A DNA stretch of 64,000 nucleotides from an uncultured Acidobacteriota bacterium (GTDB lineage: Bacteria; Acidobacteriota; CAIWXX01), in assembly GCA_903916735.1 (NCBI GenBank), contig CAIWXX010000076.1, positions 1 to 64,000 on the forward strand, given 5' to 3'. Positions within the stretch are counted from its first letter, which is position 1. Every line of letters begins with the position of its first letter. The translations under genes and the position numbers were made by a program. Shown piece by piece: positions 16,474-35,207 of this stretch. Below the pieces are notes generated by a model that worked only from the letters and a program-made list of their open reading frames with translations, was not told where the DNA came from and made no database searches.

Positions 16474-16530
16474 AAATATTGGCTCCTCAGGAGGGATTCG
16501 AACCCCCAACCCTCCGGTTAACAGCCGGAT
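16471..16530. repeat. Left attachment site: 60-bp direct repeat with tRNA-Asn 3' part
   Basis: Positions 16471-16530 are identical to 44651-44710. Positions 16480-16530 equal the 3' 51 bases of the tRNA-Asn gene (CCA, acceptor 3' strand, T arm, anticodon stem and loop), on the complementary strand. Beyond 16530 the tRNA similarity stops, so this is a displaced 3' end and not a working tRNA. Confidence 0.95.
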
Positions 16531-17556: not shown

Positions 17557-20500
17557 TCAATTCCCTCCGCTGAGCACCTCCACCATCTCGGCGATAACCT
17601 GGACACTGCCTTCATCCTCGCAGTGGAGTTCGATCGGCTCGAAGGCGGGATTGTTCGGCTTCAACATGATTTTCAGGTGGCGCCAAGTGCCATCCTCGGA
17701 GGTTGCCTTCTCGCTTTCGTAACGCTTTACGGTGTAACGCTCACCGGTTTCCGGATCGACCCCGTCGTGCAACTTTACGAGTACCGTTCGACCATGGCGA
17801 AATCCGGTGACGGGCGATGCAAACAAGCAATAGGATCCTTCGGGAATCGCAGGCTCCATTGACTTGCCCACCACCTGTGCGACGAACATACCCTGCCGCA
17901 AACGGTGGTGCGCTTCAATCTCCACCCATTCCCACTCATCGCTTTCGGGTACCGCTTGTGGCTCTCCGAAATACCCAGCAGCTGCCTTCAGCGGGATGAG
18001 CGGAACACACGTGACGTATCGATTTTCCGGACGCGGATGTATTCGCCGCAGTGTTGAATGAACCTTCGAGACAACCTCTTCTACGGCCCGCCCATACCAC
18101 GATGTATCCATCCGCAACGAATCCCGTATGTCATTGACTCCGAGGTAGCCCGCGAGCTTGCGGAAATGCCGTGTCATAGCCGCCTCATCATGGAGGTCGT
18201 TTGCTGCAATCTCGATCACTTCATAGCCTCTATTGCGCAGCCACGTTCGTATGCGCTGGTCTTGTTCAGCGGTGACAGGATTTCCATGGAGATGACCGCT
18301 TAACCCGTCGAGGTAGATGCACACACCCTCGTCCTCCGCATGATGCGACGCACGATAGATGACGTCGGGTGTGGTCGTTCCGATTTCGCGGTCGAGCTTG
18401 ATCTGTTCTCCCCGAGTCCCTTCTTCGAAGCCGGCCGCGAGCAGGAGATGCCGGAGCCGTCGCTCCGCTTCATTCACCGGCTGCGTTCCTTGCGATGGCT
18501 CTTTCGATGGCTGTTTTGCCGGAATCTCATGCGACACCGAAAGCCGCGTCCCCCAGGCATCAATCCTCTCCCTTGCTACCTTCCGATCCAGATGCCTGTG
18601 GTAGTAGCCATTGCGAAATGTTTGCAGACAGTCAACGCACGAAGTGCCGCAGGCCGATGGACATGCATCGACGACTTCACGTGCAACTGCGGCTATCTCC
18701 TCGAAGCGCCCACAGATCTGGTCGAGCAGCCCGGATCCCCCGGGCATCGGATCCCACAGCAAAGCATCTACTTCGTCCCGGTCGACATGCCCGATCACGA
18801 GAATCTGAAGATCCTCCATGTGCATGTCGAGTACACGTGTGGCTGCAAAGCGAAGAGCTTCGAGGACGCTGTAGGCCACCTTCTGATCCGTGCATGCAGG
18901 GAGCGAAAGCGCGTCTGCTACAACGTCAGCATAGAAACCGATTGGAGTGACCTTTCGTCCGCAACGTTCCTGGTGTGACGTCTCGAACTGTTCCCGTTGC
19001 TTCTCCGAAGAGAGAGGCGAGATGCTCTGCCCGCAGACCGTGCATACGGGATAGCCGAATCGGTTAAAGCGATTGATCGCATTCGATGCTCCGATATTGA
19101 CCAGTCGCAGCCTTACTCCGCGACGATGATGCAGGTTCTGCTCACCCCAACGATACGCCCGCCCGCCGTTATGTTGATCACGTTCAACCCCGTACACCGC
19201 GACACCCATCTGAAAACGCAGCTCTTCTTCATCCGAGATATGCGACTGATGAACGAGATCCACATCACAGACGGCAATCGTTTGCAGGACATTGGCCCCG
19301 AGGGAAGCCGGCGTTACACCGATATTCGTCTCCTTGACGGCTTGGTGTTCAGTCGAAATCTCGAACACCGGCGTCTCTGCTCGTTGTTCATCGATGTCAC
19401 GATGGAATCGCCGGGCGACAAAGCGATTTCCGTTGGCGTAAATGAGATTGCCGGGCACATACTCCCGAAGTGCCACACTGGGCGGCCGTGGCAGCGCGAA
19501 CTCTCTTGCCCCTAAACGCCAGAAGGGAATTTCGGCCGTACCCAGCACTGACCCCACTTCAAGCCCATAGCCGGGCAAGAACCCTTCGGCTGAGAGCACG
19601 CCAAAAGTGTTGACATCGTCGTAGCCCTCCGCTTCGTGATGGGTGCGTCGTGCTGTACCCTTGAGGCGCTTAACCAGGGAGTCACATCTTCGGAAGATGG
19701 CTTCGTCCTCCTGATCCAAGTCTCCCTGCTTCTCACGAACCGCATTCAGACGCCTAATTTGTTCCATTGCCCAACGCAGGCGCCGTCCGAGGCGGCCAAT
19801 CACTTCATCTAGGCCATGGACCATCCCGGTGACGTGAGCGCGTAGAGCCTCTGGCCGTGTCACATCTTCGTCAGCCATGGGCCATCCTTGTCGGAATGCT
19901 GTTTCCACATACGCGACCAGATCATCGCAATTCCGATCGACGAGCATTTGGAGCGGTCCAAGATCAAATGGCTTTTCTCGCAGCAAGCCTCCATCAAAGA
20001 GATAGGCCGAGACCCTATCGGGCAAACAGATCCTCAGCGTCTCCTCAATATTCCGCCGTTCCCCCTTAGATCGCGAAGGCTCTCGTGTGTACTGGTGCAG
20101 TCGCGTCATGACCGTCGCATGCACATGCTTGGCGATCATTAAATCATTGCGCAGGTTGAATGCCGGCGGATCGACCCGTCCGGCAAGGAGCTTGAGCGGC
20201 TCAGCGAAGTATGCACGATCGTGCGACACGGGTCGGCAGTAGGTGAGATCCACGGCCATTCTGTGGCGTCGTCCGGCACGTCCGGCTCGCTGCCAGTAGT
20301 TTGCCGGCAGAGGAGGAACATTGCGCATGAGAATCGCGTCGAGTTGGCCGATGTCGACCCCCAATTCGAGAGTGGGTGTGCACACGAACGTGTTTATGGC
20401 GTCAGATTCGCCCTTAAAGAGGTTCTCGAGACGTTCCCGTTCGTCGTGCGGAACCATGGCCGTGTGCTCTTCGGGACGGATCATCGAGTAACCTTGGTCG

Positions 20501-23487
20501 AGTACTTGTAGGTCGTAGTTGTCCGGGTCTTCGCGTACGAACTCGATTGTACCGTTGCAGCGCCAGGCCAGGCAGGTCTGACCGGGAGTCCGCCGTGGAG
20601 ATCGACGGCGGCAGTTCCGGCACCGCCATACGCCATGGTTTTGCTGCAAACGAAGGTGATCGGCGTCGACCTGATAGACCTCGCTGACATTCGGCAACGG
20701 GTTGCCCTTCGAACCCTTCAAGCGCACCGGTTTGAGCAGCCGCTGATCAACAAGGCAATGGAACAGACCTTCCAGAAACTCGTCCGTGTCTATCGCCGGT
20801 ACGCCCCACTTCCTCGCCATCTGATGGATCGTTGTGTCCCCCCTATCGCTCAGCCATTGCGTAATCAACTCGGATTTCTCCATCGGCCCACGACGGAGTT
20901 TAGTGGCAACAGGATTCCCAAGTTGCGGTAAATAGCCCTGCTGTATCTCGGTATCGCCGTCCATCCAGTACCGCGAAAAAATTTCCCAATCAGGATCGTG
21001 CAACACGCGCTTTCTTCGCAAGTAGTCGAGCAGGCATGCAACACCATCTCTGAGGTCTTCGGCAGGCATGCCCAGTCTGTGCGCCTGTTTCTGGATCCAT
21101 GACAGTGCTATGTTGAGGCCCTCGTAGTCGACCTTCATCCGGCCCCACGGTTCCAGACCGATGGACTGACGCGAAGAAAGCGTGACTTCGCGCAGCACCT
21201 GAATCCGCAGGAACTTGCGACGTTCTTTTTCGTGACGCCCTCCGCCACCTTCTTTTCGCACGACCTCCCAGACCTCGGGAACGAGGGCACGTGACAGCGC
21301 TTCTTCCTTTTCGAGAATATCGTCGATGTGCAGTGCGAGATCGCCGATCGAGGCCACCCGCCCGGCGAGTCCTTCGGCCATGAGTCCTCGCAGCCGGAAT
21401 CTCCGTGCATGGTCCTTCATCCAACCGGCTTGAAAAGCCGCATCTTGCCGATTGTCGCAAAACACCAGCAGCCGGCGGCGTTCCGAGTGTTGAACCATGT
21501 CTTGCGCCAGGACGTGAACATCGGCAACATTTGTGGCGCGCACAGGGCGTGCGGGCTCGCGGTATGTACTCCCGATACGTCGTCCATTTGCGCCGCACGA
21601 GAGACAGCTCGTCAGCACGCCCGGATTCTCTTCTTTCTGCCGCACCGCGTATAGGACGACCATCAATCCAGCCGCACCGCAGTGCAAACAGCGTTCCGCA
21701 GCCTTCGGATGGGCTGCGCCGCAGTGTCGACAGAAGTAAAGTGGAGCAATTCGTTCATTGTCCTCGAGATCTTCATCCTCACTCCCACCAGCCACCCGGT
21801 CAAGAAGTACGACTCGATGACCTCCCTGAGTTTCTTCCAGCGGCTCCCAAAACGAACTTTTGCCGCTGGCCTCGCCGCCGCCGGGCACCGCGCCGGTGAA
21901 TTCGAAGTCTTTCAGAAACGCGATGAAGTAGTGCTGTCCACAGGTAGTGCAAGTCGTTATGGGAAAGTGCGCGTGTTGCGGTGCGCCTTCACCCGCTGCG
22001 ATCTCGTCCTCGGCGGCGAGCCACAGTCTTGGCTCGGTTGCGCCTTCCGGAAAACTCACGACGGCGCCGCTGATGCCACGCACGAAGCCGTGAACGACAG
22101 GCCGCAATAGCGGCCTCCCTTCCCACCTGGCAGTGGCGCCGAGCGTGAGCCAACTCAGGATCTCGGCTTCGGTCACCGCTCGTCCGATCTTCTTTCCGAG
22201 CTCCCCGGGCAGCTCGTGGAGCGGACGCGGTGCCGCGAGCACCTCGTTCAGTTGATAGACGATCTCGTTGTGGGACAGGGCTGCGTGAAGTGCTTCGGGC
22301 CAGTCCCCGGGGCCTAGCTCCCCGGCTGCTAAGTCACGATATGCCTCTCGAACCCCAGCGCCATCGTCCACCAGATCGACCACCCGCACGCATTCGTTGA
22401 GTATCAGCGCAGGATCCTTCATGGGCGCGGGCGGCGTAACGCGTTCGCCCGTCCATACCTCAGGCTCATAGGCTTCGCCCACCGTCACTACGGCTTCCTT
22501 GGGAACACCGAAGAAGCGAGATGCGAACTCGCAAGCCGCATCCGGATTATCACGATCAACGATTGTCGCTGAAGTGGCGACGCAGACCGTGCCCTGAGCA
22601 TTTCGCCCGCAGAAGGCTCGCAGCCGCCGGATCAGGCAGGCGGTCTCCGCGCCTTGCGCGCCGGTGAATGTATGTGCCTCATCGAAGACGAGGCAGTCGA
22701 GTCGGGCGTTTGTGAACAGCTCTACGTCACGATGGCGTGTGAGCAAAAGCTCGAGTTGCTTGACGTTGGTGAGCAGGATACGAGGCTGTCGGCCGGGGGT
22801 ACGCATGATATCGCGTGAGCAGACCTCTTCCGGCGGATACACAGTCTCGCTTCGCTTTTCGCGGCGGACTTCAGTCAGTCGTGCCTCATAGGCTGCGTGG
22901 GATGCCCCTGTCGGCAGACGGATGCCCGAGACATCGCACTCATGCTCCGGGGTCTTCCCCACGTACATGCCGAAGGAGATGCCTGTGCCTGCGAGGAGGG
23001 AGCGCAAACGGATGAGTTGATCCTCGGCGAGCGCGTTCATGGGGTAGACGATCACCGCGCTGATTCCCGGCGACGCATTCTCGTCCCGCAGCTCCAGGCA
23101 CTTGCTCACGATCGGGTAGAGGAAGCACTCGGTCTTGCCCGAACCGGTGCCGGTCGAGATGAGCGTCGTGCGGCCGGCGCGGATGGCGCGGATGGCGTCT
23201 TCCTGGTGGCCATAAACACTAATGATTTCAGGCGGGATCCGTCGGCGCAGATGTGGATGAAGCACGCCCTCGTGCACCAGCGTCTCGACCGTTGCACCTT
23301 GGCGAAATGGTCGCGACAGGCTGACATAGGGACCTTTGAGCAAGGGCGATTGCCGCGTCGCGTCGAGCGATAGCAACTGCCGCATCTGCGCAAGCAACCG
23401 CTCGTCGGCAAACGGGTAGGCCGTGAGCTGATAGCGCAGAAAGCTGCGAACAACCTTCTCAGTGAAGACGATTGGATTCAGTGCCAT
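17557..23487 (-). CDS. Giant DEAH helicase with DUF1998, nuclease-like and LexA/UmuD-like domains
   Basis: A protein of 1976 residues. The N-terminal SF2 helicase shows TGTGSGKT (112-119), DEAH (269-272), TSAT (305-308) and QRAGRAGR (1066-1073). Cysteine pairs at 513/516, 586/589, 600/603 and 628/631 look like zinc sites. A DUF1998-type region has C1482/C1485 and C1609, C1613, C1617, C1620. Residues 1680-1780 resemble a Vsr/PD-(D/E)XK-like nuclease (TPDVIY with D1708, CIYLDG with D1727, H1732/H1734, GYEVIEI). The C-terminus is an S24 autoprotease: KSMEPAIPEG with S1876, YTVKRYES with K1921, and an Ala1837-Gly1838 bond in the usual cleavage place. It is related to MrfA and to DISARM DrmA+DrmB. 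It starts 2 nt after the AbiEii stop. Confidence 0.9.
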   Translation of the reverse strand: MALNPIVFTEKVVRSFLRYQLTAYPFADERLLAQMRQLLSLDATRQSPLLKGPYVSLSRPFRQGATVETLVHEGVLHPHLRRRIPPEIISVYGHQEDAIRAIRAGRTTLISTGTGSGKTECFLYPIVSKCLELRDENASPGISAVIVYPMNALAEDQLIRLRSLLAGTGISFGMYVGKTPEHECDVSGIRLPTGASHAAYEARLTEVRREKRSETVYPPEEVCSRDIMRTPGRQPRILLTNVKQLELLLTRHRDVELFTNARLDCLVFDEAHTFTGAQGAETACLIRRLRAFCGRNAQGTVCVATSATIVDRDNPDAACEFASRFFGVPKEAVVTVGEAYEPEVWTGERVTPPAPMKDPALILNECVRVVDLVDDGAGVREAYRDLAAGELGPGDWPEALHAALSHNEIVYQLNEVLAAPRPLHELPGELGKKIGRAVTEAEILSWLTLGATARWEGRPLLRPVVHGFVRGISGAVVSFPEGATEPRLWLAAEDEIAAGEGAPQHAHFPITTCTTCGQHYFIAFLKDFEFTGAVPGGGEASGKSSFWEPLEETQGGHRVVLLDRVAGGSEDEDLEDNERIAPLYFCRHCGAAHPKAAERCLHCGAAGLMVVLYAVRQKEENPGVLTSCLSCGANGRRIGSTYREPARPVRATNVADVHVLAQDMVQHSERRRLLVFCDNRQDAAFQAGWMKDHARRFRLRGLMAEGLAGRVASIGDLALHIDDILEKEEALSRALVPEVWEVVRKEGGGGRHEKERRKFLRIQVLREVTLSSRQSIGLEPWGRMKVDYEGLNIALSWIQKQAHRLGMPAEDLRDGVACLLDYLRRKRVLHDPDWEIFSRYWMDGDTEIQQGYLPQLGNPVATKLRRGPMEKSELITQWLSDRGDTTIHQMARKWGVPAIDTDEFLEGLFHCLVDQRLLKPVRLKGSKGNPLPNVSEVYQVDADHLRLQQNHGVWRCRNCRRRSPRRTPGQTCLAWRCNGTIEFVREDPDNYDLQVLDQGYSMIRPEEHTAMVPHDERERLENLFKGESDAINTFVCTPTLELGVDIGQLDAILMRNVPPLPANYWQRAGRAGRRHRMAVDLTYCRPVSHDRAYFAEPLKLLAGRVDPPAFNLRNDLMIAKHVHATVMTRLHQYTREPSRSKGERRNIEETLRICLPDRVSAYLFDGGLLREKPFDLGPLQMLVDRNCDDLVAYVETAFRQGWPMADEDVTRPEALRAHVTGMVHGLDEVIGRLGRRLRWAMEQIRRLNAVREKQGDLDQEDEAIFRRCDSLVKRLKGTARRTHHEAEGYDDVNTFGVLSAEGFLPGYGLEVGSVLGTAEIPFWRLGAREFALPRPPSVALREYVPGNLIYANGNRFVARRFHRDIDEQRAETPVFEISTEHQAVKETNIGVTPASLGANVLQTIAVCDVDLVHQSHISDEEELRFQMGVAVYGVERDQHNGGRAYRWGEQNLHHRRGVRLRLVNIGASNAINRFNRFGYPVCTVCGQSISPLSSEKQREQFETSHQERCGRKVTPIGFYADVVADALSLPACTDQKVAYSVLEALRFAATRVLDMHMEDLQILVIGHVDRDEVDALLWDPMPGGSGLLDQICGRFEEIAAVAREVVDACPSACGTSCVDCLQTFRNGYYHRHLDRKVARERIDAWGTRLSVSHEIPAKQPSKEPSQGTQPVNEAERRLRHLLLAAGFEEGTRGEQIKLDREIGTTTPDVIYRASHHAEDEGVCIYLDGLSGHLHGNPVTAEQDQRIRTWLRNRGYEVIEIAANDLHDEAAMTRHFRKLAGYLGVNDIRDSLRMDTSWYGRAVEEVVSKVHSTLRRIHPRPENRYVTCVPLIPLKAAAGYFGEPQAVPESDEWEWVEIEAHHRLRQGMFVAQVVGKSMEPAIPEGSYCLFASPVTGFRHGRTVLVKLHDGVDPETGERYTVKRYESEKATSEDGTWRHLKIMLKPNNPAFEPIELHCEDEGSVQVIAEMVEVLSGGN

Positions 23488-23489
23488 TG

Positions 23490-24500
23490 TCAGCTCTCCC
23501 TTCGGTCGTCACTCAAAACGACTCCATTCAACCTCTTGCCTTGTCGCTTCGCGCGGGCGCGAACATTCTGGATCTTCCATAATATTGCCGGGTGTTCTGC
23601 GACACGCGCAGCGATTATCGAGTCATCGGGAAAGAGCAGCTCGGGCTTCAGCTCACCTTGTTCGATCGCGGCCAGATAAGCCTCCTCGTGCGCATCGAGC
23701 GAGAGCAGCGGTGCCACGGTGGCCCAGACACGATCCAGCATGTCCTCAACCCTGAAGGTCGTGACTCCCGCCAACATGGGAGCAAGTTGCTCCACGAGCG
23801 CCCGTTCAGTCAAGAGACCTGCGAGACGGCTGCGGGTATAGGTGGGAAGCGGATGATCGAGGATAGCAGACAACCCGATGAACCATGCCCTAAACGGGGG
23901 CGACGCTATCACATCAGCTGCTGACTGCGGCAGATGGGTCACATCCCAGACGTCCCGAGCTGCGCCCCGGTCGAGCAGTGCAAGCACTTTTCCAATCAGT
24001 AACTCAACGAGACCGACAGCACAGATCCTAGGTCGATCCAGCTCGCCGGGCTGCCACACAAAAAGTTTTTCCAACTCAACAAGTGGGAGTCGAAAAAGGA
24101 AATTCAAATCCAGCTCGATCCGGTCCTCTTGTCCAAGAACTGATCGATACCTCAGGTACAACTTGCGGCCGGCAAACGCGTCCGCCGAGCGTTGCACGCG
24201 ATAGCCCGCGCGTTTTGCAAGAGCCACGATGGCCTCCTCGACGCGCGGCCGGTCCTCCAGCATCTTCTGCCGATCGAGCTGGCCGATGTAGTTAAAGTCG
24301 AGGTCCACTGAGAGGCGCTGAGGCGGTCCGTAGCAAAGGTTGAGCGCAGTACCACCCTTGAGCGCGAGCACTTCACCCAAGAAGGGATGCCTGGCGACCT
24401 CCCCGGCGAGCTCTCCCAGCCGGACTACCTTTTCCAGGATCACGACTTGGAAGCCGTTGTCTGCGGAACACCGTTCCAGGTATTCAAGACTAACGCTCAT
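23490..24500 (-). CDS. AbiEii/AbiGii-type nucleotidyltransferase toxin
   Basis: A 336-residue protein of the AbiEii toxin family, enzymes with a DNA-polymerase-beta-like nucleotidyltransferase fold that act in type IV toxin-antitoxin and abortive-infection systems. LKGGTALNL (47-55) is the GS-like motif, and D66 and D68 in SVDLDFN are the metal-binding pair. A later helix, 'LIGKVLALLDRGAARDVWDV', fits the family's conserved K...R.RD region. I chose the ATG at 24500, behind AAGGGAG, over the GTG at 24515. It overlaps the AbiEi stop by 11 nt, so the pair is coupled. Its own stop lies 2 nt before the giant helicase, placing the toxin inside the defence operon. Confidence 0.92.
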   Translation of the reverse strand: MSVSLEYLERCSADNGFQVVILEKVVRLGELAGEVARHPFLGEVLALKGGTALNLCYGPPQRLSVDLDFNYIGQLDRQKMLEDRPRVEEAIVALAKRAGYRVQRSADAFAGRKLYLRYRSVLGQEDRIELDLNFLFRLPLVELEKLFVWQPGELDRPRICAVGLVELLIGKVLALLDRGAARDVWDVTHLPQSAADVIASPPFRAWFIGLSAILDHPLPTYTRSRLAGLLTERALVEQLAPMLAGVTTFRVEDMLDRVWATVAPLLSLDAHEEAYLAAIEQGELKPELLFPDDSIIAARVAEHPAILWKIQNVRARAKRQGKRLNGVVLSDDRRES

Positions 24501-25284
24501 TGGGCTCCCTTGCACGAAGCAGTGGTCGCGGCACGATAAGGTTCCAACGCGTCATTAGTGTGCCCCCACGCTCCCCAGGCTCCAGATACTGAGGTGAGCG
24601 CGGCCGGTGACGCGCCAGTGTAGTGAGGAAAGAATCAGGCACGTGGAAAATCCGCTGAAAGCGCTCCAGAAACCAGCCTGTCGCGGCCCAGAGCTTGGCG
24701 AGGCCATGGCGGCGGAGGACTTCTTTGAGGAGGTCGAGATCGATCGTCGTGAAGCCGCTTGCCGAGACCACAAGTTCCTCCAGCCCACCGGCGAGCCCCG
24801 GCCGCAAGAATCCTTCGACCAACGTACGCTCCGGGCCTGTCACTTCGAGCACTCGTCCGCGATGCTCAATCCGTCGTATGCCAAGGCGCCGGAGACTTCC
24901 TTTTCGCATTGTGGCGGGATGATCGAGAAAGCGGATTGTGGCTCCATCCAAGGCAAGAGGCTTTCGTCGTCGAGTCGTGTAGAGGGCGTATTGACTCCAT
25001 ACCGAATGCGCTGCCCCCAGGAGCTCCAGTGCGCTATGGTGTGAGAAGATGCCATCAGGCCGGGTGGCTACGGCGACGAGGAAGGGATCGGGTCGGAACT
25101 GCGATGATGTGCCTGGCGGGACCACCGCATACACGCCGCGGGTTACAAGCCTCAGCCGCCCCATTTCCAAATAATACTTCAGCCGCTCAACCATCCCTGC
25201 ACGTCCGCCTGGCGGAACGAGAGCCCGGGCCGCCTCGTCGAGCGAGAAGACTGGGTGAGTCGCAAAGAATTCAGCGGTTCTCAT
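24490..25284 (-). CDS. AbiEi-type antitoxin and transcriptional regulator
   Basis: A 264-residue protein with the AbiEi layout: an N-terminal winged-helix part (FFATHPVFSLDEAARAL, 'RLKYYLEMGRLRLVTRGVYA') and a C-terminal antitoxin domain with 'FSHHSALELLGAAHSV' and 'VTGPERTLVEGFLRP'. In characterised systems AbiEi binds inverted repeats in its own promoter and represses the operon, and it counters AbiEii. Upstream is a 222-nt gap holding a likely promoter and a palindrome, so abiEi-abiEii and the helicase behind them can be transcribed separately from the methylase part. Confidence 0.9.
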   Translation of the reverse strand: MRTAEFFATHPVFSLDEAARALVPPGGRAGMVERLKYYLEMGRLRLVTRGVYAVVPPGTSSQFRPDPFLVAVATRPDGIFSHHSALELLGAAHSVWSQYALYTTRRRKPLALDGATIRFLDHPATMRKGSLRRLGIRRIEHRGRVLEVTGPERTLVEGFLRPGLAGGLEELVVSASGFTTIDLDLLKEVLRRHGLAKLWAATGWFLERFQRIFHVPDSFLTTLARHRPRSPQYLEPGERGGTLMTRWNLIVPRPLLRAREPNER

Positions 25285-25366
25285 GTTCTGTCTCCTGCTT
25301 CTTCGTTATCCCGCCCAGTGGCCTGCGCATCCGGGGCATTATGGACTTGATATTCTGTGCTTCAAC

Positions 25367-25403
25367 AGGGGATATTTTCCCCTTTTGGAGCACGAAATGT
25401 CAA
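25367..25403 (-). promoter_or_regulatory. Likely AbiEi promoter with palindromic operator
   Basis: On the leftward strand TTGACA (25403-25398) is followed after 18 nt by GAAAAT (25379-25374). The palindrome AGGGGA-5 nt-TCCCCT (25367-25383) overlaps the -10 region. AbiEi proteins are known to repress their own operon through inverted repeats, so this is the best candidate operator. It lies about 83 nt before the AbiEi start. Confidence 0.5.
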
Positions 25404-25506
25404 GTTGATTTGCTTTGCCTATACAGGTAGTCCGAGAATCGATCGCCTTAGTCGCTCTTGCCACTTCGTTCTCTTTCTCCGATCAACTCACCTCAATTTA
25501 GGCAGG

Positions 25507-28500
25507 TCATTCGAAGAGCCTTCCCTGTCTCTCGTTCTTGTTTGGCGGGATCGCGGGCTTGGCTGGGCCTGGTTTCTCGCCGCGCTTCTCGGCTTCGATG
25601 TCGGCGAGGAGCTGGCGGTAGCCGGATTCGCCGAGGAGGTTACGGGCGTGGAGGTGGCACTCGCGCCAGGATTCTTCGGGGGGCTGGGCGAGCTGCCAGT
25701 CATAGAAGCGGGGGCCGAGGCGGCTGGCGACGGGCTGCGGGTGCTTCGCGCGCTCGTCGTGGCCGAGGCCGTAGTCGGCAAGGCGCAACGTTTCGGGCAG
25801 CATCCAGCCCTCGCCGTTGTTCTGATTGAGGAACGCCTCGATGCCCTTCTCGCGGTCGCCGCCGCAGGCACGGATTTTCTCTTCGAGGTCGTGGAAGGCG
25901 ACGAGCGTCAGGACCGTGTGCCGCAACTCGGGATCCTTGTCCTTGTCCACGCGCCAGAAACCGCGGGCGGAAAGGCGAGTGTCCATGTTGGACCGGATTT
26001 TCAAAACAGGCCAGGCGCAACCACCAACAACCCAGTGCAGGTCAGCAAGGCTAAGACCGAACTGGATGGTGGCGATCGCGTCAACAGTGATTATCTTCTC
26101 TAGACGATGATGAGTTGTACGGGACCAATCCCCTCGCCAACCCGCGACATGGTTTGTGGGCGCCACAGAAACGTGATGTTCGATCCATACATGTGCCATC
26201 CTCTGGCTACACCCAGCAAGTGAGCGGACTGGCCATTGCAAACACCTCAACCACCTTGCTACAGGCAATGGCATGTCAGTCATCAAGTGCTGATCGAGGT
26301 GTGTGCCGGTGAGCCGCTGCCGAGCTACAAAGTCGAAAACGAAGGAGTTGATTACTCCACACAGCGCCCATGCTTTTTCTGTGTTCGTCAGAACCAGATT
26401 GGAAGTCATGTGTGGTGTCGGATCACCCATAATAACTGTCCCGATGACAGAGCGAGTGTCCGTATTGCGAGAGATATTGCGGTAGGAAACTTTGGCTGAT
26501 TGCACAACCCGTGTGTGAGCACGCACATCGCGCTCGGAGGTCAGGTACTGTGGGTTCACGAACTTGCACTCAGAATCTCCAGGACTCCATTGGGCGGAAA
26601 GTCCTGAACCGGACAGCCAGTTCTTTGCGGCGAAGTCAAACGCCGAGAAAAGCCTCCCCTCATATAACGGCAGTGCGACATCCTCGACCCTTTCCTCTCG
26701 CACCCAGGCATCCGCCTCGCGGGAGAGGATGACGCCCGCTGGGATGTCCGCCCGTGGGATGGGCAGGGTGTCGTAAGGCGGCTGGGCGCAGCGGCGGTCG
26801 CCTTCGGGGAGCGGCTTCACGTCCAGCTCGGACCACAACTCAGCAATCGGACGCCAGTCGCCTTTGAGCCAGCGACTGTACTCATCAGGGCGATAGCCGT
26901 CGGCTTCCCATTTCGGCCTCGGCGGGAAGAGCTTGGAGTCGCTGGTCATGTTGAAGTCGCCCTGGGCATATTTGATTCCCCAGCCGTCGGGACCTTCGTC
27001 GCCAAGGAGCACGGAGTTGGCATAGATTTTTTCTAGGATTTCAAGGTCGCGCTGTGACTGGATCTCGAGGATGGCTTTCGAGCGCGGGCTGAAGCGTTCG
27101 ACCTGTGCTCGTGTGTATAGTGTCGCCAGCTCCTCGGCACGCTCCCAGTCTTCGAGCTTGCGGCGCATGAATGCCGTACGGATAGCCTCGGTCTTGCCGC
27201 CCTTCTCGATGATTACTGGGTTGAACTTGAAGCGACTGTCGATTTCAAAAACCTTGTCTCGATTCTCGAAGCCGAAGAGCCACTCCCATCGGCAGCGATC
27301 AAGGAAGAGCTGCCTGAGACCTCCAGTTCCGTGGTCGGAATAGAGGCCAGATGGCACGATAAAGCCTAGGCGCCCGTTCGTTCGCAAAAGAGCGTGGGCC
27401 TGTTCCAGGAATAGCTTGTACGTGTAGGCCTTACCCTCACCTCGATGACGGAAGGGGTGCTCCGACGATGCATAGCCCTTGGTCTTTCCACGCGCGGAGC
27501 GCCACCGGCTGTGCAGCCTTTCATTCTCATTGCCACGCGCGATCGCAAAGCGGTCAGTGTTGTTTTCCGCGTCGTTCGGATCACCAAAGGGTGCGGCGCC
27601 GAACTTCATCCAGTTCGAATCGTTCGCAAAACCGGCGGAATATTCGAGCCACTCGCGCTCGATTCTTGTCTGGTTGAAGTACTCGGATTGGTAACGCAAG
27701 GCTTCCTGCTTTCCATAGGAGCGATAAAGTGGGTCAATATTCGAAAAGAATTCCTTTGAGCTCGGCTGGAGCGTCTCCCACGGCGGGTTGCCGAGGATCG
27801 CGTCGAAGCCGGAGCCGGCGGCGCGGAAGACGTCGGGGAACTCGAGTTCCCAGTGGAAAAATCTCTTGCCAGTTGCTATGCGCTCGGCAATCGCGCGGGT
27901 CTGCTCTGGTGTCGTGGCCAGTGTCGTCGGCAGCGGGGCGCGCTGCAACTCATCGGCAGGCCAGAACCAGCACGCACACCATAGATCCATCGCCATCTTG
28001 AGCGAGTGATACGCCGTCGAGCCCAGCAGCTCCTCGCGGTAGATTCGCGCGCGCTCGGCACTGTCGTGAACAGGTAGGTCATGCAGGCGTGCAAGCGTTG
28101 CCAGCGCATTGTCGTGTACCATGCCGGCCTTCTCCAGCAAGTCCTCAGAGAATAGGGTGCGCCCCTCCAGAAAACGCCGCAAGTCGGGTGTGAGTGTCTC
28201 CTTAACAAACGCCTTGATCGCCTTGGATCGGGCCTCCGGCTGGAAGTGCACGCCATTAGTGTGGCCCTTGTCGCCGCCCTCGCGATTCTTCCACGCCATC
28301 GCCGGGTAGTGCTGGAATTGATCGAACCACGCACCGACGAGCGCGTTGCCGCACTTCACCTTGTGATCGAGGAATGAGAATGGCAGTGTACGATCCATTG
28401 TCTCGATCCATAGTGATAAGCGGCAAAGCTCGACCGCGAGCGGGTCGAGGTCGACTCCATAAATGCAGCGCTCAACGACATGGCGTCGGAGGACCGCTTT

Positions 28501-30654
28501 CAGGCGAGGTTCGAAAAGTGCGTCGTCGGGCCGGCAGGGCAAAAGCTCCTCGCCTAAGCGCTCTCCGGGAACCGCGGTTGGCTCTGAGGTGCCGGCGAGG
28601 AGCCTCACGACGGCACGCTCGCCTTCCGTCGTGATTCGGCCATGGTGGTAGAGAGAGGCACAGAGTGCATCAGTAAGGAAGCGCAGTGCCGCTACAGGAA
28701 ACGTGCCCGAGCCGCACGCCGGATCGCAAACCTTGAGTGCGAGAATTCCCTCGGGTGCTTTCGGAGTCCACTCGCCAGGCGGGGCCTCACGATTCGGGAT
28801 GCCCTGTGCGGAAGGTGGTGGGTCGTAGGCCAGAGGGCGGAGCGTTCGCTGCACCGTCGGGATGGCGAGTCCCGGACGCGTGTAGAAGGTGCCGGCGCCC
28901 TTGCGGGTTCCACCCCAGCACACGACATACCATTCGCCCGGCAGGATCACCCGGATCACAAGCTGCCGTGCCTTGCGCGAAATGCTTTCTTCATGGGCGA
29001 GTCGTTTTTCAGGCGTCATCTTCCCTTTTGGTTTACGTGACAGTCCACCGACCTGGACAGCACGACGCGCCCAGGTTTCGGCGCGCGTCCGTGTCGTATG
29101 CCGCTCGTCCTCCATGTCTGCTTCGGTTTCTTCCGGTATCTCAGCTTCCGTCTGTTCGGGGACAGACTCATCCTCGCCCGGCTCCTGCTCGACTTCTGGT
29201 TCCTCTTCGACCGTCGACTCGCCCTCTTCGTCCTCCTTGCTGGTGTCCTTCATCTTTTCCAGCAGGCTGGCCAGCGCCCTGTCGTCCATTGCCTCCAGCC
29301 GCGAAAGTGGCAAGGCCGGCTGATTACCGACCGCCAGGAAAATGACGGGATCTCCCGTAGGGGCTGTTTTAAGCTCGAAGTCAAGAAGGCCCTCATAGAG
29401 AATGCCGATATATTCGCTTGAGAGGTCCGAGAAATCGACTGGCACCGGGGACCACGTGCTGGCGCGTCCCTGCCGCAACTTCACCTTTGTGCGGGTCATG
29501 AGCTCCAGCATACGGTGCACGTCTCGGTCCGGCAGAAGCTCTCGATCGAAGCATGCATTCTCGAAAACGGCAAGCGCCCGTGTGAGCGCGTCAGTTGAGG
29601 TTGCGTCGCCTGGAGCGAAAAGCTCGCCACCGTACGCGGGAACAGGCAGCTCCGGATGATGGGATCCATGGTAGACGAGTCTAAAGAGCGCGAGCACACG
29701 CGGCCACGCATTCCATGAGCGGGCAAGACGATGGCCGCCGCGAGCGGCCACCTTCTCCAACTCCTCGAGAAGGCCGGTGAGACCGTAGGCGCCGTGATAA
29801 AGGGTGCTGTCGCGCGGCAGTAGATCACGGGACTCGGCGAAGAGTACTACGACCATCCGCATGACCATGCGGACGGCGGCGCGGTAGATGCAGGCGGGAT
29901 CGACGTCGCTGCACTGTTCCCTGAGCACATCGCCGTGAGCCTGCACGAGCAGTTCGACGGCTTCGCGCACGCGTTCGCCCAGGACGGCTGAAAGCTCGGC
30001 TTGTCCCTTCCGGCTATCGAGAATCGCTTCGAGCAGTGGAGAAAAAACATCCTTCGTGGGCGGCGTCCAGAGCTCGGGCAAAAGCAGAGTTCGCAATGCA
30101 TGCACTTGCGGCGACATCGTACCTTCTTCGAACCACAGTTCCACGTCCCATTCGCACCACGAGTCGAAGTCGAGGCCGGCGAAGCTGAGGCGCCACTGCC
30201 GGCCGTTTGTAAGAACGGCGAGCCGCTCACTCCCCACGCGCAGCCATTGAACAGTCTGGCTTGCGGCCTTTCGGCCACGGCCGATCCCAAGGCGCGTCTC
30301 GGAATCGAAGAAGACAGGAAGAATCGCCCCGTTGATTCCGCGCCAGAGTTGTCGCGGCTTCACCGTCTCACCCGTCACAACGCGTCGGCCCCACTCGGCG
30401 CCCACTTGAGAGCCTCTTTGCCAAGTCCCGTTGGCGCTTGTAAATCCGCAGATTTTCTCAAGTACGAAGCTCACGAAGTCGGGGACACTGGCGGAGTTGT
30501 CGAGAACCATGCTCGCCAGACGCCGCAGCTCATGCTCGCAATAGGCCGGCAACGGTTCCGGAACGTGCATGGCGATTTGGAGCAGGCGAGGAGGATCGAG
30601 CAAGAGACCGCCGTGACGTAGGCGATCCCAGCCGAGCAACGCAGAATCGTTCAT
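25507..30654 (-). CDS. Eco57I-type adenine-N6 methyltransferase of a DISARM-like system
   Basis: A 1715-residue protein with methyltransferase motif I CDPACGSGTF (643-652) and catalytic motif NPPW (956-959), the signature of adenine-N6 methylases of the Eco57I/type IIG kind. About 640 residues precede motif I, including a very acidic segment (about 470-520). About 750 residues follow NPPW and should hold the target-recognition part, as in PglX and DrmMI. I see no PD-(D/E)XK nuclease at the N-terminus, so it is probably a methylase only. In DISARM the methylase marks self DNA. It overlaps the SNF2 helicase by 4 nt (ATGA), so the two are coupled. Confidence 0.9.
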   Translation of the reverse strand: MNDSALLGWDRLRHGGLLLDPPRLLQIAMHVPEPLPAYCEHELRRLASMVLDNSASVPDFVSFVLEKICGFTSANGTWQRGSQVGAEWGRRVVTGETVKPRQLWRGINGAILPVFFDSETRLGIGRGRKAASQTVQWLRVGSERLAVLTNGRQWRLSFAGLDFDSWCEWDVELWFEEGTMSPQVHALRTLLLPELWTPPTKDVFSPLLEAILDSRKGQAELSAVLGERVREAVELLVQAHGDVLREQCSDVDPACIYRAAVRMVMRMVVVLFAESRDLLPRDSTLYHGAYGLTGLLEELEKVAARGGHRLARSWNAWPRVLALFRLVYHGSHHPELPVPAYGGELFAPGDATSTDALTRALAVFENACFDRELLPDRDVHRMLELMTRTKVKLRQGRASTWSPVPVDFSDLSSEYIGILYEGLLDFELKTAPTGDPVIFLAVGNQPALPLSRLEAMDDRALASLLEKMKDTSKEDEEGESTVEEEPEVEQEPGEDESVPEQTEAEIPEETEADMEDERHTTRTRAETWARRAVQVGGLSRKPKGKMTPEKRLAHEESISRKARQLVIRVILPGEWYVVCWGGTRKGAGTFYTRPGLAIPTVQRTLRPLAYDPPPSAQGIPNREAPPGEWTPKAPEGILALKVCDPACGSGTFPVAALRFLTDALCASLYHHGRITTEGERAVVRLLAGTSEPTAVPGERLGEELLPCRPDDALFEPRLKAVLRRHVVERCIYGVDLDPLAVELCRLSLWIETMDRTLPFSFLDHKVKCGNALVGAWFDQFQHYPAMAWKNREGGDKGHTNGVHFQPEARSKAIKAFVKETLTPDLRRFLEGRTLFSEDLLEKAGMVHDNALATLARLHDLPVHDSAERARIYREELLGSTAYHSLKMAMDLWCACWFWPADELQRAPLPTTLATTPEQTRAIAERIATGKRFFHWELEFPDVFRAAGSGFDAILGNPPWETLQPSSKEFFSNIDPLYRSYGKQEALRYQSEYFNQTRIEREWLEYSAGFANDSNWMKFGAAPFGDPNDAENNTDRFAIARGNENERLHSRWRSARGKTKGYASSEHPFRHRGEGKAYTYKLFLEQAHALLRTNGRLGFIVPSGLYSDHGTGGLRQLFLDRCRWEWLFGFENRDKVFEIDSRFKFNPVIIEKGGKTEAIRTAFMRRKLEDWERAEELATLYTRAQVERFSPRSKAILEIQSQRDLEILEKIYANSVLLGDEGPDGWGIKYAQGDFNMTSDSKLFPPRPKWEADGYRPDEYSRWLKGDWRPIAELWSELDVKPLPEGDRRCAQPPYDTLPIPRADIPAGVILSREADAWVREERVEDVALPLYEGRLFSAFDFAAKNWLSGSGLSAQWSPGDSECKFVNPQYLTSERDVRAHTRVVQSAKVSYRNISRNTDTRSVIGTVIMGDPTPHMTSNLVLTNTEKAWALCGVINSFVFDFVARQRLTGTHLDQHLMTDMPLPVARWLRCLQWPVRSLAGCSQRMAHVWIEHHVSVAPTNHVAGWRGDWSRTTHHRLEKIITVDAIATIQFGLSLADLHWVVGGCAWPVLKIRSNMDTRLSARGFWRVDKDKDPELRHTVLTLVAFHDLEEKIRACGGDREKGIEAFLNQNNGEGWMLPETLRLADYGLGHDERAKHPQPVASRLGPRFYDWQLAQPPEESWRECHLHARNLLGESGYRQLLADIEAEKRGEKPGPAKPAIPPNKNERQGRLFE

Positions 30655-33600
30655 TTCACATCTCGCGGAAGACGTACCTCGATTGAGACAGGGAATACTT
30701 GAGCAGGCGCGGACATGGCATGCCGCTTAGGTAGCAAATGCTTCAGGATGCGTTCGCGCTCGCGTTCAAGTTGGGCACGCACTTCTTCGTAGTGGCGTGT
30801 GCGCCGAGCGATTTCCTCCTGCTTCTCCTCAATCGAGCGGTCAATTTCATCCAGTCGCGCTTCCTCGTCGAAGAGGAGTCCCTGCTGACGCTCCGCTTTC
30901 AGATTTACGATCTCGCGCTCGAGCTTGGCGAGAGTATTCTCGGTGATCAGGCTGGATACCTCGCCCTGGCGGCGCCGATAGCGTTCCTCCTCGCGTTTGC
31001 GGGCCTGGATACAGGCGCTTTCGAGCTCGCGTTGAAGTGAGGTGTTGAGCTGTTGGACGTCTTTCACCAGAAACCGCTTCAACTCCGGCATGACCTCATC
31101 GAGTAGTTCGCAGGCGTGTGTGTGGATGACGGGGTCGTGGGTGACGAGAGCGCCCCGCAATCCAGCAGCAGGACTATGCGGAAGTGGCCGGCCGAGCGCA
31201 CATTTCTGGATTGGAAACACCAATGTGTGCACCCAATGATGAAATGTCTCTCGCAAGTCATTCACGGCGAGCTCCTCGACACTGAGCAAAATAAGGGCGT
31301 CGACGCCGGGCGGGACATCACCGAGACGCACGGTCCAGCGCGATACCTCCTCACCGCTGCCCGGGAAGCGTCGCCGCGCGAGCGCGGAAAGCGCCCGTTG
31401 CAGCATCGGATGGGAAAGGTGCATGAGTAACACGTCTGGGCGAGGAGAGAAGATGCGCCTGCCGCCTATATCATCGATGAACGACTCAGGGCTAAAAGCG
31501 AGACGAGCGACGGGGCCGCGGACGCCGCGGCTGGTGTTGCGCCGAAGTGAATCGTCGATGACCTCGCTCCAACCGGGAAGCGCAGGATTCAGGATCTTCC
31601 ATGTATGAGCGGCCGCTGAAGAATCGACGAGCTGTGGGCGACCGGCATGGACCGCCATTCCGGCTTCGAGGGTGTCGCGCAGGGAGGCTGGATCGAGGTC
31701 CAACTCGGCTGCAAGCGCATCCAGTTGATCACTGCCGGCGCGTCCATCGGCGCCGCTCGCCGTCATGTCATCAGCCTCGATCGCGGCGCGGCCACGCGCG
31801 GCGGCTACTCGTGCATCGAGATCGGCCTTTACCACTGCCAGGCTTTCACCCTCCACCAACCGACGGTGGGCGGCCTCGTCGAACAGTTCGTTGGCGGAGC
31901 CAAGGTCCTCACGGATTTCATCGGCTTTGCGGATCACATGAGCCAAGAAATCGAGGTCCTGGTCCTGAGCTGCAACAAAGTGATAGACCGTGACGTCACG
32001 GGCTTGGCCGTGGCGGTCTAGGCGTCCGTTGCGCTGTTCGAGCTTTGAAGGGTTCCACGGGCAATCGAAGTGCAGCAGGTAGCGGGCGGTTTTCTGGAGG
32101 TTCAGGCCTTCGCTGGCGGCGTCCGTCGCAAGCAGGATGCGCACGGGGTTGGCCGGGTCATTGAATGCCTGCTTCACCAGGTCGCGTTCAATCTCGTCCA
32201 TGCCGCCGAAGAGTGTGAGGATGCGATCGGGCTCGAAGCGTTCGCGCAGGCGGCGGATGAGATAATCAAGAGTCGTTTTGTATTCGGTGAAGACGACGAG
32301 ACGTTCATCGTCACGCCACTTGCCATGAGAACAGATGAGCCTGTCGATCAAGGCGAGCAACGCATCGAACCGCGCGTCGGTTGATGGGTTCTGGGAGGGG
32401 AGATCGTCACGTGAGAGGTCCAACCGCAGGCCGGCAATCGCCTCTTCGATGCTGGAGATCTCACTCCTGATGTCCTGCGCGATGGGCTTCAACCAAGCGC
32501 CAACCACACTGGAGGCCGTGGCTTCCCGCGACTGTGCTTCGCGATCATCCGCCGTCTCGCGTTCGAGATTTCGTCGCACGGCGTCGACGGCCGACTCGTC
32601 GGCTGAGGGCTCCTCCGTGAGTCCTGTCTTACACCGGCGCCACGATTCGGCGAAGGCGAGCGGACAACTCAGCAGACGCTTGCCAAGGATCTCGATGGCG
32701 AAGTTGCCGGCACGCCGGCGGTTCTTTCCACTGCCGGCGAACAGCTTTCGAATTCCTGTACGAAGAGCGTCGAAAGCGGAGCTTACAGCAATCTCTTGGG
32801 GCGAAAGCTGGAGGAGGAGTGCCTGGGGACGATGGCGGGTGCAGAACTTGGGTGGACTCGTGCGTGCATTGATATCGCGTTTCAGGCGTCGCAGCACGAC
32901 CTGCTGAATGCGGTCCTTCTCTGCGGGCCTGATAGCATCGGTTTGACTGAAGCGTACAGGGTCGAGGATTTCGAGCAACCCGGTGAAACAGCGCGTGTGG
33001 CCATTGTGTGGCGTCGCGCTCAAGAATAGTCGGTGCTCGAATTGAGGTGTGACCAGGCGAAGCATCCGGCAGAGGTCACTATCATCACCGAACGCTGAAG
33101 GCATCAGGTTGTGGCACTCGTCCACGATGAGGAGATCCCACGGCAGGTGCGGAGATCCTTCAGGGGTGCGGCAGGCCGCGAGGAACTGCTCAAGGACATC
33201 GTCCTGACGGAGATAGTGGTACGACGCGATGATTCGGCTGAAGGAGCGCCAAGGATTGGCGTCCATCCCGAGGCGACGATGCAGAGATTGGGTCTCGGCT
33301 CGATCCACAAGGTCGAAACGCAGCGAGAACTTCTCCCATAGTTCGTCGCGCTGCCATTGGAGCCGAAGTGAAGCAGGCGTCAGGATGAGCACGCGCTGGA
33401 TACGCCGTCGCAGCAAGAGTTCGGTGAGAATCAGCCCCGCTTCGATTGTCTTGCCGAGGCCGACGTCGTCAGCGATGAGCAGGTTGATCCGCGGCATCCG
33501 TAGTGCCTTGAGAAGTGGTACGAGCTGGAAATCTTCGATCTGAAGCGCGCCGTGGAATGGGCTCGATATTGGCAGGCGATCGAGCGGCCCTTCACCGTCG

Positions 33601-33911
33601 GGGTCCAGGAAAGGCATTCCCGCAGTCCAACGGGCCGCGCGAAGTAGCGCGTCAAAGTCCTCGGTAGGCATAGGAGCACCGCGGGTTGCGTCGGGCAAGG
33701 CGGTCGGTTCGAGCAGAGTCCGGCGTGGTTCCAGTTCCCAGAGAAGCCGTTCTTCCTCAGGGAGCTGGTCGTCTTTGTACTGGATATGAACAAGGTGCAA
33801 CCGACCACTGTCGCCATCAAACGGCTCAACCCCTGAGATGATGCCGCGGCGGTTGCGGACTGTCGCGAACATCCCGGGACGAGGCACTGGATTGCAGTGA
33901 GCAGTATTCAT
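30651..33911 (-). CDS. drmD: DrmD-like SNF2-family helicase
   Basis: A 1086-residue SNF2/HepA-like ATPase. Walker A is DDVGLGKT (148-155), the Walker B box is DECH (264-267), motif III is SATPHNGH, and the C-terminal helicase lobe has ATDAASEGLNLQ and QRNGRLDRHGQ. The last 130 residues form a charged coiled coil ('KREEERYRRRQGEVSS', 'EARLDEIDRSIEEKQEEI'). The pattern and length match the SNF2 component of class 1 DISARM. It lies 57 nt after the 59-aa gene and overlaps the methylase by 4 nt. In such systems the helicase is thought to act on incoming DNA. It is intact, unlike its DUF3883 relative at 15.2-16.0 kb. Confidence 0.9.
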   Translation of the reverse strand: MNTAHCNPVPRPGMFATVRNRRGIISGVEPFDGDSGRLHLVHIQYKDDQLPEEERLLWELEPRRTLLEPTALPDATRGAPMPTEDFDALLRAARWTAGMPFLDPDGEGPLDRLPISSPFHGALQIEDFQLVPLLKALRMPRINLLIADDVGLGKTIEAGLILTELLLRRRIQRVLILTPASLRLQWQRDELWEKFSLRFDLVDRAETQSLHRRLGMDANPWRSFSRIIASYHYLRQDDVLEQFLAACRTPEGSPHLPWDLLIVDECHNLMPSAFGDDSDLCRMLRLVTPQFEHRLFLSATPHNGHTRCFTGLLEILDPVRFSQTDAIRPAEKDRIQQVVLRRLKRDINARTSPPKFCTRHRPQALLLQLSPQEIAVSSAFDALRTGIRKLFAGSGKNRRRAGNFAIEILGKRLLSCPLAFAESWRRCKTGLTEEPSADESAVDAVRRNLERETADDREAQSREATASSVVGAWLKPIAQDIRSEISSIEEAIAGLRLDLSRDDLPSQNPSTDARFDALLALIDRLICSHGKWRDDERLVVFTEYKTTLDYLIRRLRERFEPDRILTLFGGMDEIERDLVKQAFNDPANPVRILLATDAASEGLNLQKTARYLLHFDCPWNPSKLEQRNGRLDRHGQARDVTVYHFVAAQDQDLDFLAHVIRKADEIREDLGSANELFDEAAHRRLVEGESLAVVKADLDARVAAARGRAAIEADDMTASGADGRAGSDQLDALAAELDLDPASLRDTLEAGMAVHAGRPQLVDSSAAAHTWKILNPALPGWSEVIDDSLRRNTSRGVRGPVARLAFSPESFIDDIGGRRIFSPRPDVLLMHLSHPMLQRALSALARRRFPGSGEEVSRWTVRLGDVPPGVDALILLSVEELAVNDLRETFHHWVHTLVFPIQKCALGRPLPHSPAAGLRGALVTHDPVIHTHACELLDEVMPELKRFLVKDVQQLNTSLQRELESACIQARKREEERYRRRQGEVSSLITENTLAKLEREIVNLKAERQQGLLFDEEARLDEIDRSIEEKQEEIARRTRHYEEVRAQLERERERILKHLLPKRHAMSAPAQVFPVSIEVRLPRDVK

Positions 33912-33968
33912 TTTATCCGGATCGGCCGTACACGTTTACTTTCAGATAGGTTGTCCATGATGAGAGCT

Positions 33969-34148
33969 TCAGGGTTTCTTGCGATAAATGTTCAGTCCGA
34001 TTTTCTCGTCACGATCGGGGATGGACACGTAGCCTTCGGTAGACGCGATTATGATCGTCTTGCCCGATGATGACGGGCCGAACTCCTTGGTCAAGCCCAC
34101 CTTGATGGTCAAGATGTAATCCTCGGCCTTCATTTTCACGTTCTTCAT
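33969..34148 (-). CDS. 59-aa conserved small protein, copy 2, first gene of the defence operon
   Basis: A 59-residue frame with ATG at 34148 behind GGAG (8-nt spacing). It contains 'LTKEFGPSSSGKTIIIA' and 'GLNIYRKKP', and 48 of 59 residues equal those of copy 1 at 15993-16172. It is the first gene of the leftward operon, 57 nt before the DrmD-like helicase. The central block and C-terminus are best conserved; differences cluster near residues 5-18. There is no helix-turn-helix or zinc motif, and it looks like a small beta-sheet protein. It is too short for many gene finders and may be overlooked in related islands. Confidence 0.82.
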   Translation of the reverse strand: MKNVKMKAEDYILTIKVGLTKEFGPSSSGKTIIIASTEGYVSIPDRDEKIGLNIYRKKP

Positions 34149-34435: not shown

Positions 34436-35207
34436 GTGGGACAGATTCTGGCATTCGCTATGCAAAAAGGGGGTGTTGACAGGACGACGACAGTTTTGAA
34501 CCTGGGCGTCGCGCTGGCCACAGGTGGTGCGAAGGTTCTTCTACTCGACATCGACCCACAATCGAATCTGACACGGGGATTGGGGATCGATCCCGATGAG
34601 GTTGAATTCGCCATTTACGAGGTTCTTCTCAATCCAGAAAAAGGCATCGAGTTTGCGATACAAAGCTTACGTGGGGAAGGCTAAAGTTGATTTGGTTCCA
34701 TCGACACTGAATTTGGCTGGTGCCGAAATGGAACTTGCAGGGAAGGTTGGCCGTGAAATGCTGCTTCGCGAGGCGATCGCTCCGGTATGCCGAAAATATG
34801 ATTTCATTCTGATTGATCCACTGCCTTCACTTGGCCTGTTCACCTTGAACGCGCTCGCCGCGGCTGACTCGGTCGTTGTGCCGCTTCAGACGCGTGCATA
34901 CGCGTTCAAGGCGATGCCCAAACTGGAAGCGACGATCAACCTGGTTCGGAAGCTCAATCCCGGTCTTTCCATTGGCGGCATCGTGTGTACTCTTTCAGAT
35001 CGTCGTACGAATTTCAGCCAGGTCGTTGAACAACAGATTCGGACAAAGTATGAGGATCTTGTTTTCCAGACGGTTATCCTTATGAGTGTCAAACTGGCCA
35101 AATCACCGGCATCTGGAACGCCGATATCAATATACGCACCCGACAGCGCGGGTGATAAAGCGTATGCGGCCCTTGCGGAAGAAGTGGAGGGACATTATGG
35201 TAGATAA
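34436..35207 (+). pseudogene. Broken ParA-type partition ATPase
   Basis: The frame starts at a GTG (34436) behind AGAGGA. It reads GQILAFAMQKGGVDRTTT and LLLDIDPQSNLTRGLG, the ParA deviant Walker A region and the DxDPQ motif. The Walker A of ParA is normally KGGxGKTT; here it is KGGVDRTT, so the essential lysine has become arginine and its glycine aspartate. Near 34655-34690 the frame shifts by one base: 'FAIQSLRGEG' then stop, while the rest ('KVDLVPSTLNLAGAEMELAG', 'FILIDPLPSLGLFTLNAL') is in another frame to 35207. Both changes would abolish function. Confidence 0.85.

Follow-up and report, generated by a model that had tools for sequence, protein, structure and literature searches.

ARMADA is a newly described anti-phage system composed of the BrxHII-like protein ArmA, the PglX-like protein ArmB, and ArmC, a Druantia-like YprA helicase that carries a Vsr-type nuclease at its C-terminus; type II members add ArmD (RelE-GajB) after ArmC (Bell et al. 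2025, PMC12458937). The system has been reported on tRNA-integrated elements, and the defence provided by ARMADA II of Escherichia coli is direct and non-abortive (PMC12458937). Defence by E. coli ARMADA is abolished by mutations in the Walker A/B motifs of ArmA and ArmC and in the NPPW motif of ArmB, and the main text of the same report contains no mention of AbiE, S24, or LexA (PMC12458937). BREX loci contain embedded back-up effectors in the form of varied toxin–antitoxin or nuclease modules (GmrSD, HNH, PIN, HEPN, OLD, and Schlafen) (PMC12839542). Here, we describe an ARMADA-like operon within the window, i.e. the whole 64,000-nt stretch of DNA that was analyzed.

An ARMADA-like operon on an integrative element

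The six leftward open reading frames of a previous sequence-only reading were all found on the minus strand (Table 1), and their joints were as it described: armA and armB overlap by 4 nt (30651–30654), 222 nt separate armB from abiEi, abiEi and abiEii overlap by 11 nt, and armC follows abiEii after 2 nt. The 11-nt overlap holds with the ATG at 24500, the start of homologues; with the mechanical GTG start it is 26 nt. The domain calls of that reading were borne out by Pfam, PADLOC, and NCBIfam, which gave SNF2, Eco57I/PglX-like methylase, AbiEi, AbiEii, and DEAD/Helicase_C/MZB (DUF1998) helicase. Its 59-aa protein was dropped as an operon component, as family profiles and tblastn against the ARMADA relative loci searched gave nothing. 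The C-terminal Peptidase_S24 domain of ArmC and the boundaries of the element were absent from it.

Table 1. Positions of the operon genes, ArmC domains, candidate promoter, and carrier element in the window
Feature	Position	Strand	Properties and evidence
Element left end	16471–16530	.	60-bp perfect direct repeat of tRNA-Asn end; exact repeat of 44651–44710
armC-like gene	17557–23487	-	1976 aa; Pfam; PADLOC DruE3 343 bits; Walker A GTGSGKT 113–119, DEAH 269
LexA-like S24 tail of ArmC	17560–18021	-	residues 1823–1976; PF00717; predicted scissile bond A1837/G1838, Ser1876, Lys1921
Vsr-like PD-(D/E)xK nuclease region of ArmC	18118–18480	-	about residues 1670–1790; position; conserved E/D/D/H/D residues
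DUF1998 / MrfA zinc-binding domain of ArmC	18625–18861	-	residues 1543–1621; Pfam PF09369 30.4 bits (cut-off 24.2)
abiEii, putative nucleotidyltransferase toxin	23490–24500	-	336 aa from ATG 24500 (starts of homologues); Pfam AbiEii 93 bits, PADLOC 269 bits
abiEi, putative antitoxin/regulator	24490–25284	-	264 aa; PADLOC AbiEi 211 bits
Likely abiE promoter/operator	25345–25405	-	promoter-like site TTGACA 25403 ... GAAAAT 25374 in 28-nt inverted repeat
armB-like gene	25507–30654	-	1715 aa; PglX/Eco57I-type adenine methylase; PACGSG 645, NPPW 956
armA-like gene	30651–33911	-	1086 aa; BrxHII/DrmD-type SNF2 helicase; GLGKT 151, DECH 264
59-aa ORF	33969–34148	-	not supported as component; family and ARMADA-locus searches blank
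AAA_25 ATPase (RepA-like)	40096–41196	-	Pfam 100 bits
Prim-Pol primase	41469–42053	-	Pfam 78.6 bits
AlpA-like excisionase/regulator	42217–42477	-	Pfam HTH_17, Phage_AlpA
Tyrosine integrase adjoining tRNA-Asn	43331–44653	+	Pfam Phage_integrase 84.9 bits
Element right end	44651–44710	.	60-bp repeat reaching into tRNA-Asn gene (44660–44734)

ArmA matched the DrmD model of PADLOC (661 bits) and DISARM_DrmD of NCBIfam (670 bits, cut-off 610), and, as a DrmD/BrxHII-type helicase, it has Walker A and DECH motifs. ArmB, with SAM and NPPW motifs, matched the type IIG model of PADLOC at 1398 bits versus 418 bits for DrmMI. ArmC is a Druantia-like YprA/DruE-type helicase with CxxC motifs and DUF1998 (MZB), followed by the Vsr-like nuclease region and, directly after it, the S24 tail. 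The best PDB match of the Vsr-like region was weak (3r3p, a mobile-intron protein; E = 0.035). The best PADLOC model for ArmC was DruE3 (343 bits), and DISARM DrmA scored 47 bits. ArmC of E. coli ARMADA II, taken from a plasmid armA-B-C-D cluster (L138), showed the same PADLOC fingerprint (DruE3, 348.5 bits). The Walker A/B motifs of ArmA and ArmC and the NPPW motif of ArmB are all present in the operon. No ORF for a RelE-GajB protein (ArmD) was found from armC to the end of the element. A typing tree of ArmC was built with the E. coli type II protein, type I-like proteins of Paraburkholderia and Deinococcus, and one haloarchaeal sample. This tree, in which E. coli sits on a very long branch, set the clade of the present ArmC apart from the samples of types I and II and gave no type assignment. 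Because the ArmC fingerprint, the gene architecture, and the defence-essential motifs match those of ARMADA, the operon is ARMADA-like (armA-armB-armC). It shares with types I and II the kinds of ArmA, ArmB, and ArmC, the DUF1998 domain, the PADLOC fingerprint, a tRNA-integrated carrier, and probably the C-terminal Vsr-like region, and it differs from them in lacking ArmD, in its separate ArmC clade, and in having a slot for cargo at the armB–armC junction and a LexA-like tail. As in Druantia type III (DruH-DruE), there is a helicase, here with DruE3 as its best model, but DruH is absent and ArmA and ArmB are present.

A 28-kb integrative element inserted in tRNA-Asn carries the operon as cargo; its ends and its integration and replication genes are listed in Table 1. 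A ParA-like AAA_31 fragment and two DEDDh-type exonuclease genes (34596–37048) also lie within the element, divergent from the operon.

A recurrent cargo slot between armB and armC

ArmC relatives were gathered by searches of whole genomes, plasmids, and viral contigs, and the armB–armC junction was visible in 14 loci of this ArmC clade, for which distances were taken from ORF boundaries. Unrelated cargo of 719–14,788 nt fills 12 of the 14 junctions, and the other two are empty; the counts are given without a p-value because related loci are not independent. The slot is 2019 nt long with AbiE in the present operon, 719 nt with a small protein and PIN in a Synechocystis plasmid, 4175 nt with a methylase and a GmrSD_N protein in G115, and 14,788 nt with a C5 methylase, a type II restriction enzyme, a reverse transcriptase, and others in G183. 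It contains HepT, an MntA-like partner, and an OLD-like ATPase in G175 (7726 nt), a close HepT homologue (judged by eye) in G326 (6122 nt), GmrSD and a P-loop NTPase in G218 (4439 nt), DRT1 in G257 (8224 nt), a reverse transcriptase-like protein and a ParE-like toxin in G259 (8568 nt), a CBASS cyclase and 4TM effector in G261 (11,320 nt), and DUF932 and HNH proteins in viral contig L184 (3868 nt); in G268 it spans 11,095 nt. The empty junctions measure 15 nt (G219) and 18 nt (G647). By comparison, armA–armB is tight in 9 of 11 cases (overlap or about 10 nt at most), G175 and G326 being the exceptions (about 0.7 kb). Inserts at this armB–armC junction are also seen in ARMADA loci that are more distant (Schlafen-AlbA, AAA_14/DUF4143, and XRE-ImmA with a PIN-like protein); the junction of the E. 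coli type II locus is empty. Because the same gap repeatedly holds other toxin–antitoxin or defence genes, the position is a recurrent slot for swappable small defence or toxin–antitoxin modules, not a site of random insertion. Like the auxiliary or back-up effectors of BREX, these are varied modules inside a core operon (PMC12839542), but here the operon is ARMADA, the junction is a single fixed one, and AbiE, CBASS, and DRT1 are included.

Several of these loci have features of their own. The operon of the Synechocystis sp. B12 plasmid (L013) is split into many ORFs and carries an IS701 insertion, reflecting decay or sequencing errors; its PIN-domain toxin gene still lies between armB and armC despite the broken operon. 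L184 (IMG/VR, 102 kb, classed as viral) has armA-armB, four cargo genes including the HNH and DUF932 genes, and an armC without the S24 tail. Minus-strand ORFs of 1242 aa (L041, 13586–17314) and 1325 aa (L069, 13746–17723) lie beside hepT in the slot; the former gave no match to Pfam or PADLOC, and each could be either a genuine gene or a shadow ORF of GC-rich sequence.

The sequence-only reading described the AbiE pair as built into the operon. The recurrent position agrees with this description, but relatives carrying other cargo or none rule out AbiE as a fixed part. That reading had also held that the pair would be a chance insertion if AbiE occurred elsewhere and the core was conserved without it. 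Both situations were largely found, as the same AbiE subfamily stands alone in four genomes (L014–L017) and ARMADA cores occur without AbiE; a chance insertion is nevertheless not indicated, since the slot recurs. A scan of the genome contigs for AbiEii returned only four loci. On a Syntrophus contig (L018), abiEii is followed by armC. This ArmC is about 77% identical to the present one, yet its AbiEii is closer to the stand-alone AbiEii (80%) than to ours (64%), which suggests that AbiE was captured twice, separately, into the same slot. The L018 contig is cut, and its abiEii (L018 1–984) appears frameshifted.

AbiEi and AbiEii form a bicistron, and the nucleotidyltransferase motifs of AbiEii are present. 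In described AbiE systems, AbiEi autoregulates, and the abiE promoter contains inverted repeats (PMC3985639). The only strong promoter/operator in the 222-nt gap is the one ahead of abiEi, where the best minus-strand promoter-like site lies inside the 28-nt inverted repeat. The repeat scored 15.5, compared with at most 8.0 after shuffling, and the four stand-alone abiE loci share its core block. Across the whole region, promoter-like sites are no commoner than expected by chance, so the assignment of a likely abiE promoter/operator is based on position, repeat, and conservation. The AbiE pair lodged in the slot thus appears to be an autonomous module that brings along a promoter and an inverted repeat of its own. 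Because armC starts 2 nt after abiEii, it is probably transcribed from the abiE promoter as well. The pair resembles type IV AbiE toxin–antitoxin systems in its bicistronic order and in the promoter overlapping an inverted repeat (PMC3985639), and differs from them in its location inside a restriction operon with armC within 2 nt downstream.

The LexA-like tail of ArmC and of other restriction motors

Pfam placed Peptidase_S24 at residues 1834–1968 of ArmC. Searched against the PDB, a profile built from 18 tails hit nothing but LexA chains (best E = 1.5e-5), and the alignment superimposed the cleavage site, the serine, and the lysine on those of LexA. With an AlphaFold2 model of the tail (pLDDT 84.7) as the query, C-terminal domains of LexA, lambda CI, and UmuD were matched among the top 38 Foldseek hits, and solved LexA–RecA complexes were also among the matches. 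The Ser and Lys are kept in all 29 tails, and the sequence at the site is [A/V/L/I]AA/[G/S] (the slash marking the bond) in 28 of 28 tails in which it is visible. From the model and the conserved residues, the tail is predicted to have the LexA fold with an intact Ala/Gly site and Ser–Lys dyad, and to cleave itself. It shares fold, site, and dyad with the S24 domains of LexA, UmuD, and CI, but it is the C-terminal tail of DNA-motor restriction enzymes, not of a repressor, and its Ser and Lys lie about 8 residues further apart. The tail is missing from the compact relatives G219 and G647, and therefore is not needed by the core.

Besides ArmC, the tail occurs on HsdR with HSDR_N, HsdR with T1RH-like_C, type ISP enzymes, type III Res, an SF2 helicase encoded in the same genome as the operon, SLFN-g3 helicases, and DUF3037 proteins. 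The dyad and cleavage site are intact in the non-ARMADA carriers, i.e. type I HsdR (L044–L046 and L048), type ISP (L047 and L086), type III Res (L090, L092, and L093), the SLFN-g3 type (L094, L096, L132, and L133), and DUF3037 (L095 and L098). Outside the phylum of the window, SLFN-type helicases from the phylum to which the Syntrophus genome belongs bear the tail, as do viral-contig HsdR and a ResIII-type enzyme. The genome that contains the operon encodes a second S24-tailed protein, a ResIII/Helicase_C helicase of 1054 aa (G000:C168; L043 3002–6166). A stand-alone S24 ORF of the same type on a Halomonas plasmid (L105 6239–6718) has an in-frame stop just upstream and was perhaps severed from a larger carrier.

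At 63–68% (one 57%), the likeness of the present ArmC tail to HsdR tails roughly equals its likeness to the nearest ArmC tails (68–69%) and exceeds that to other ArmC tails (51–57%), although its core is 54–74% like the cores of the compared ArmCs. In the tail tree, one type ISP tail is nested among HsdR tails at a starred branch. A single clade of ArmC tails was not rejected by the tree test (p-AU 0.30), so repeated transfer of the tail into ArmC is not claimed. Literature searches for HsdR or other restriction enzymes bearing S24 or LexA-like domains turned up nothing of relevance, and fusions of LexA-like tails to restriction motors appear to be unreported in the searchable literature.

Proposed function of the operon and its tail

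Here, we propose a mechanism based on the architecture of the operon and on the conserved tail. ArmB (PglX-like) would mark the host DNA, and ArmA (BrxHII/DrmD-like) and ArmC would translocate on unmarked phage DNA and destroy it directly, as in the non-abortive defence of E. coli ARMADA II. The AbiE pair would occupy the slot as an autonomous module, and its autoregulated promoter probably serves armC too. When the tail of ArmC meets a RecA filament, it would cleave itself after Ala1837 and leave a helicase-nuclease with a new C-terminal AAA, which resembles the LexA and ssrA signals for ClpXP. Restriction would thereby be shut off while the host DNA is damaged, and the tail would act as a switch for restriction alleviation that is built into the enzyme and triggered by RecA. 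It is by such C-terminal ends that the LexA fragment and ssrA-tagged proteins are taken by ClpXP. The off direction is favoured because the predicted cleavage leaves AAA on ArmC, and VAA, LAA, or IAA on other carriers, as a ClpXP-type end; the LexA-like protein of 205 aa encoded by the host genome is also counted in its favour. To our knowledge, HsdR of EcoKI has no such tail. In restriction alleviation, E. coli HsdR is removed by ClpXP, and its degron has been sought and not found (PMC4231737). The proposed switch resembles this process in that a restriction motor is controlled during trouble with the host DNA (PMC4231737). The analogy is imperfect because EcoKI alleviation is thought to act per translocating complex, not via general SOS (PMC4231737). 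We have moderate confidence in the explanation as a whole, namely element-borne, ARMADA-like restriction with AbiE in a cargo slot and a LexA-type off-switch tail on ArmC. The wider proposal is put forward tentatively: a portable LexA-type tail may be a common safety switch in which RecA triggers self-removal and leaves [AVLI]AA as a ClpXP signal on ArmC, HsdR, type III Res, type ISP enzymes, and Schlafen-group helicases. This would be a new, built-in form of SOS-linked alleviation, added here to an ARMADA system with a cargo slot.

For the operon itself, the sequence-only reading proposed a DISARM of class 1 whose subunits are fused and into which an AbiE pair is built. The data support an operon for phage defence that has, as in class 1 DISARM, a DrmD-like and a PglX-like protein, and the SNF2 protein scores above the NCBI cut-off for DISARM DrmD. 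DrmD, however, is a family common to ARMADA, the methylase fits the type IIG profile far better than DrmMI, and the helicase is of the Druantia/ARMADA type. The reading also tentatively placed the domains of drmB and drmC inside the giant helicase; the DrmB-type part, DUF1998, is fused there, but neither DrmA nor a separate DrmB is present, and Pfam detected no PLD-nuclease domain (DrmC) in any protein of the operon. The helicase profile and the gene set thus rule against class 1 DISARM, which we regard as highly improbable. The AbiE pair could instead be an integrated back-up effector, with AbiEii stopping growth when a phage inhibits ARMADA and AbiEi coupling the expression of abiE and armC. 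The close spacing of abiEii and armC behind the promoter/operator, the abiEii just ahead of armC in Syntrophus, and the comparable effectors in BREX loci (PMC12839542) are consistent with such coupling. We nevertheless consider it rather unlikely, as the same gap in most relatives holds other cargo or none, the AbiEii identities suggest separate captures, and ARMADA II of E. coli is non-abortive (PMC12458937).

The tail, in turn, could be an on-switch, with RecA-triggered cleavage during infection freeing an auto-inhibited helicase-nuclease. Phage attack can produce single-stranded DNA and RecA filaments, and the position of the tail directly after the nuclease region and its conserved dyad and site would suit such a release. 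The freed enzyme would, however, bear the LexA-like destruction signal [AVLI]AA, as would every carrier with a visible site, and unrelated enzymes would all need the same auto-inhibition; activation is thus unlikely. A tail that no longer cuts and instead serves in dimerisation or RecA docking seems quite improbable. S24 domains do dimerise and bind RecA filaments, as illustrated by the LexA–RecA complexes among the fold matches, but unused catalysis would decay, and practically every tail, whichever of the seven carrier types bears it, keeps the Ser, the Lys, and the Ala/Gly site.

It has long been asked how bacteria keep restriction motors from cutting their own DNA when it is damaged and unmethylated, and the most unexpected result of this study is that several such motors bear a LexA-like tail. 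If the tail works as predicted, a single domain would combine the sensor, the cut, and the destruction signal. From the cargo slot it can be seen how toxin–antitoxin and other defence modules come to lie within a restriction operon, as has been described for BREX, and the slot accounts for the odd placement of AbiE without the need to assume a single designed system.
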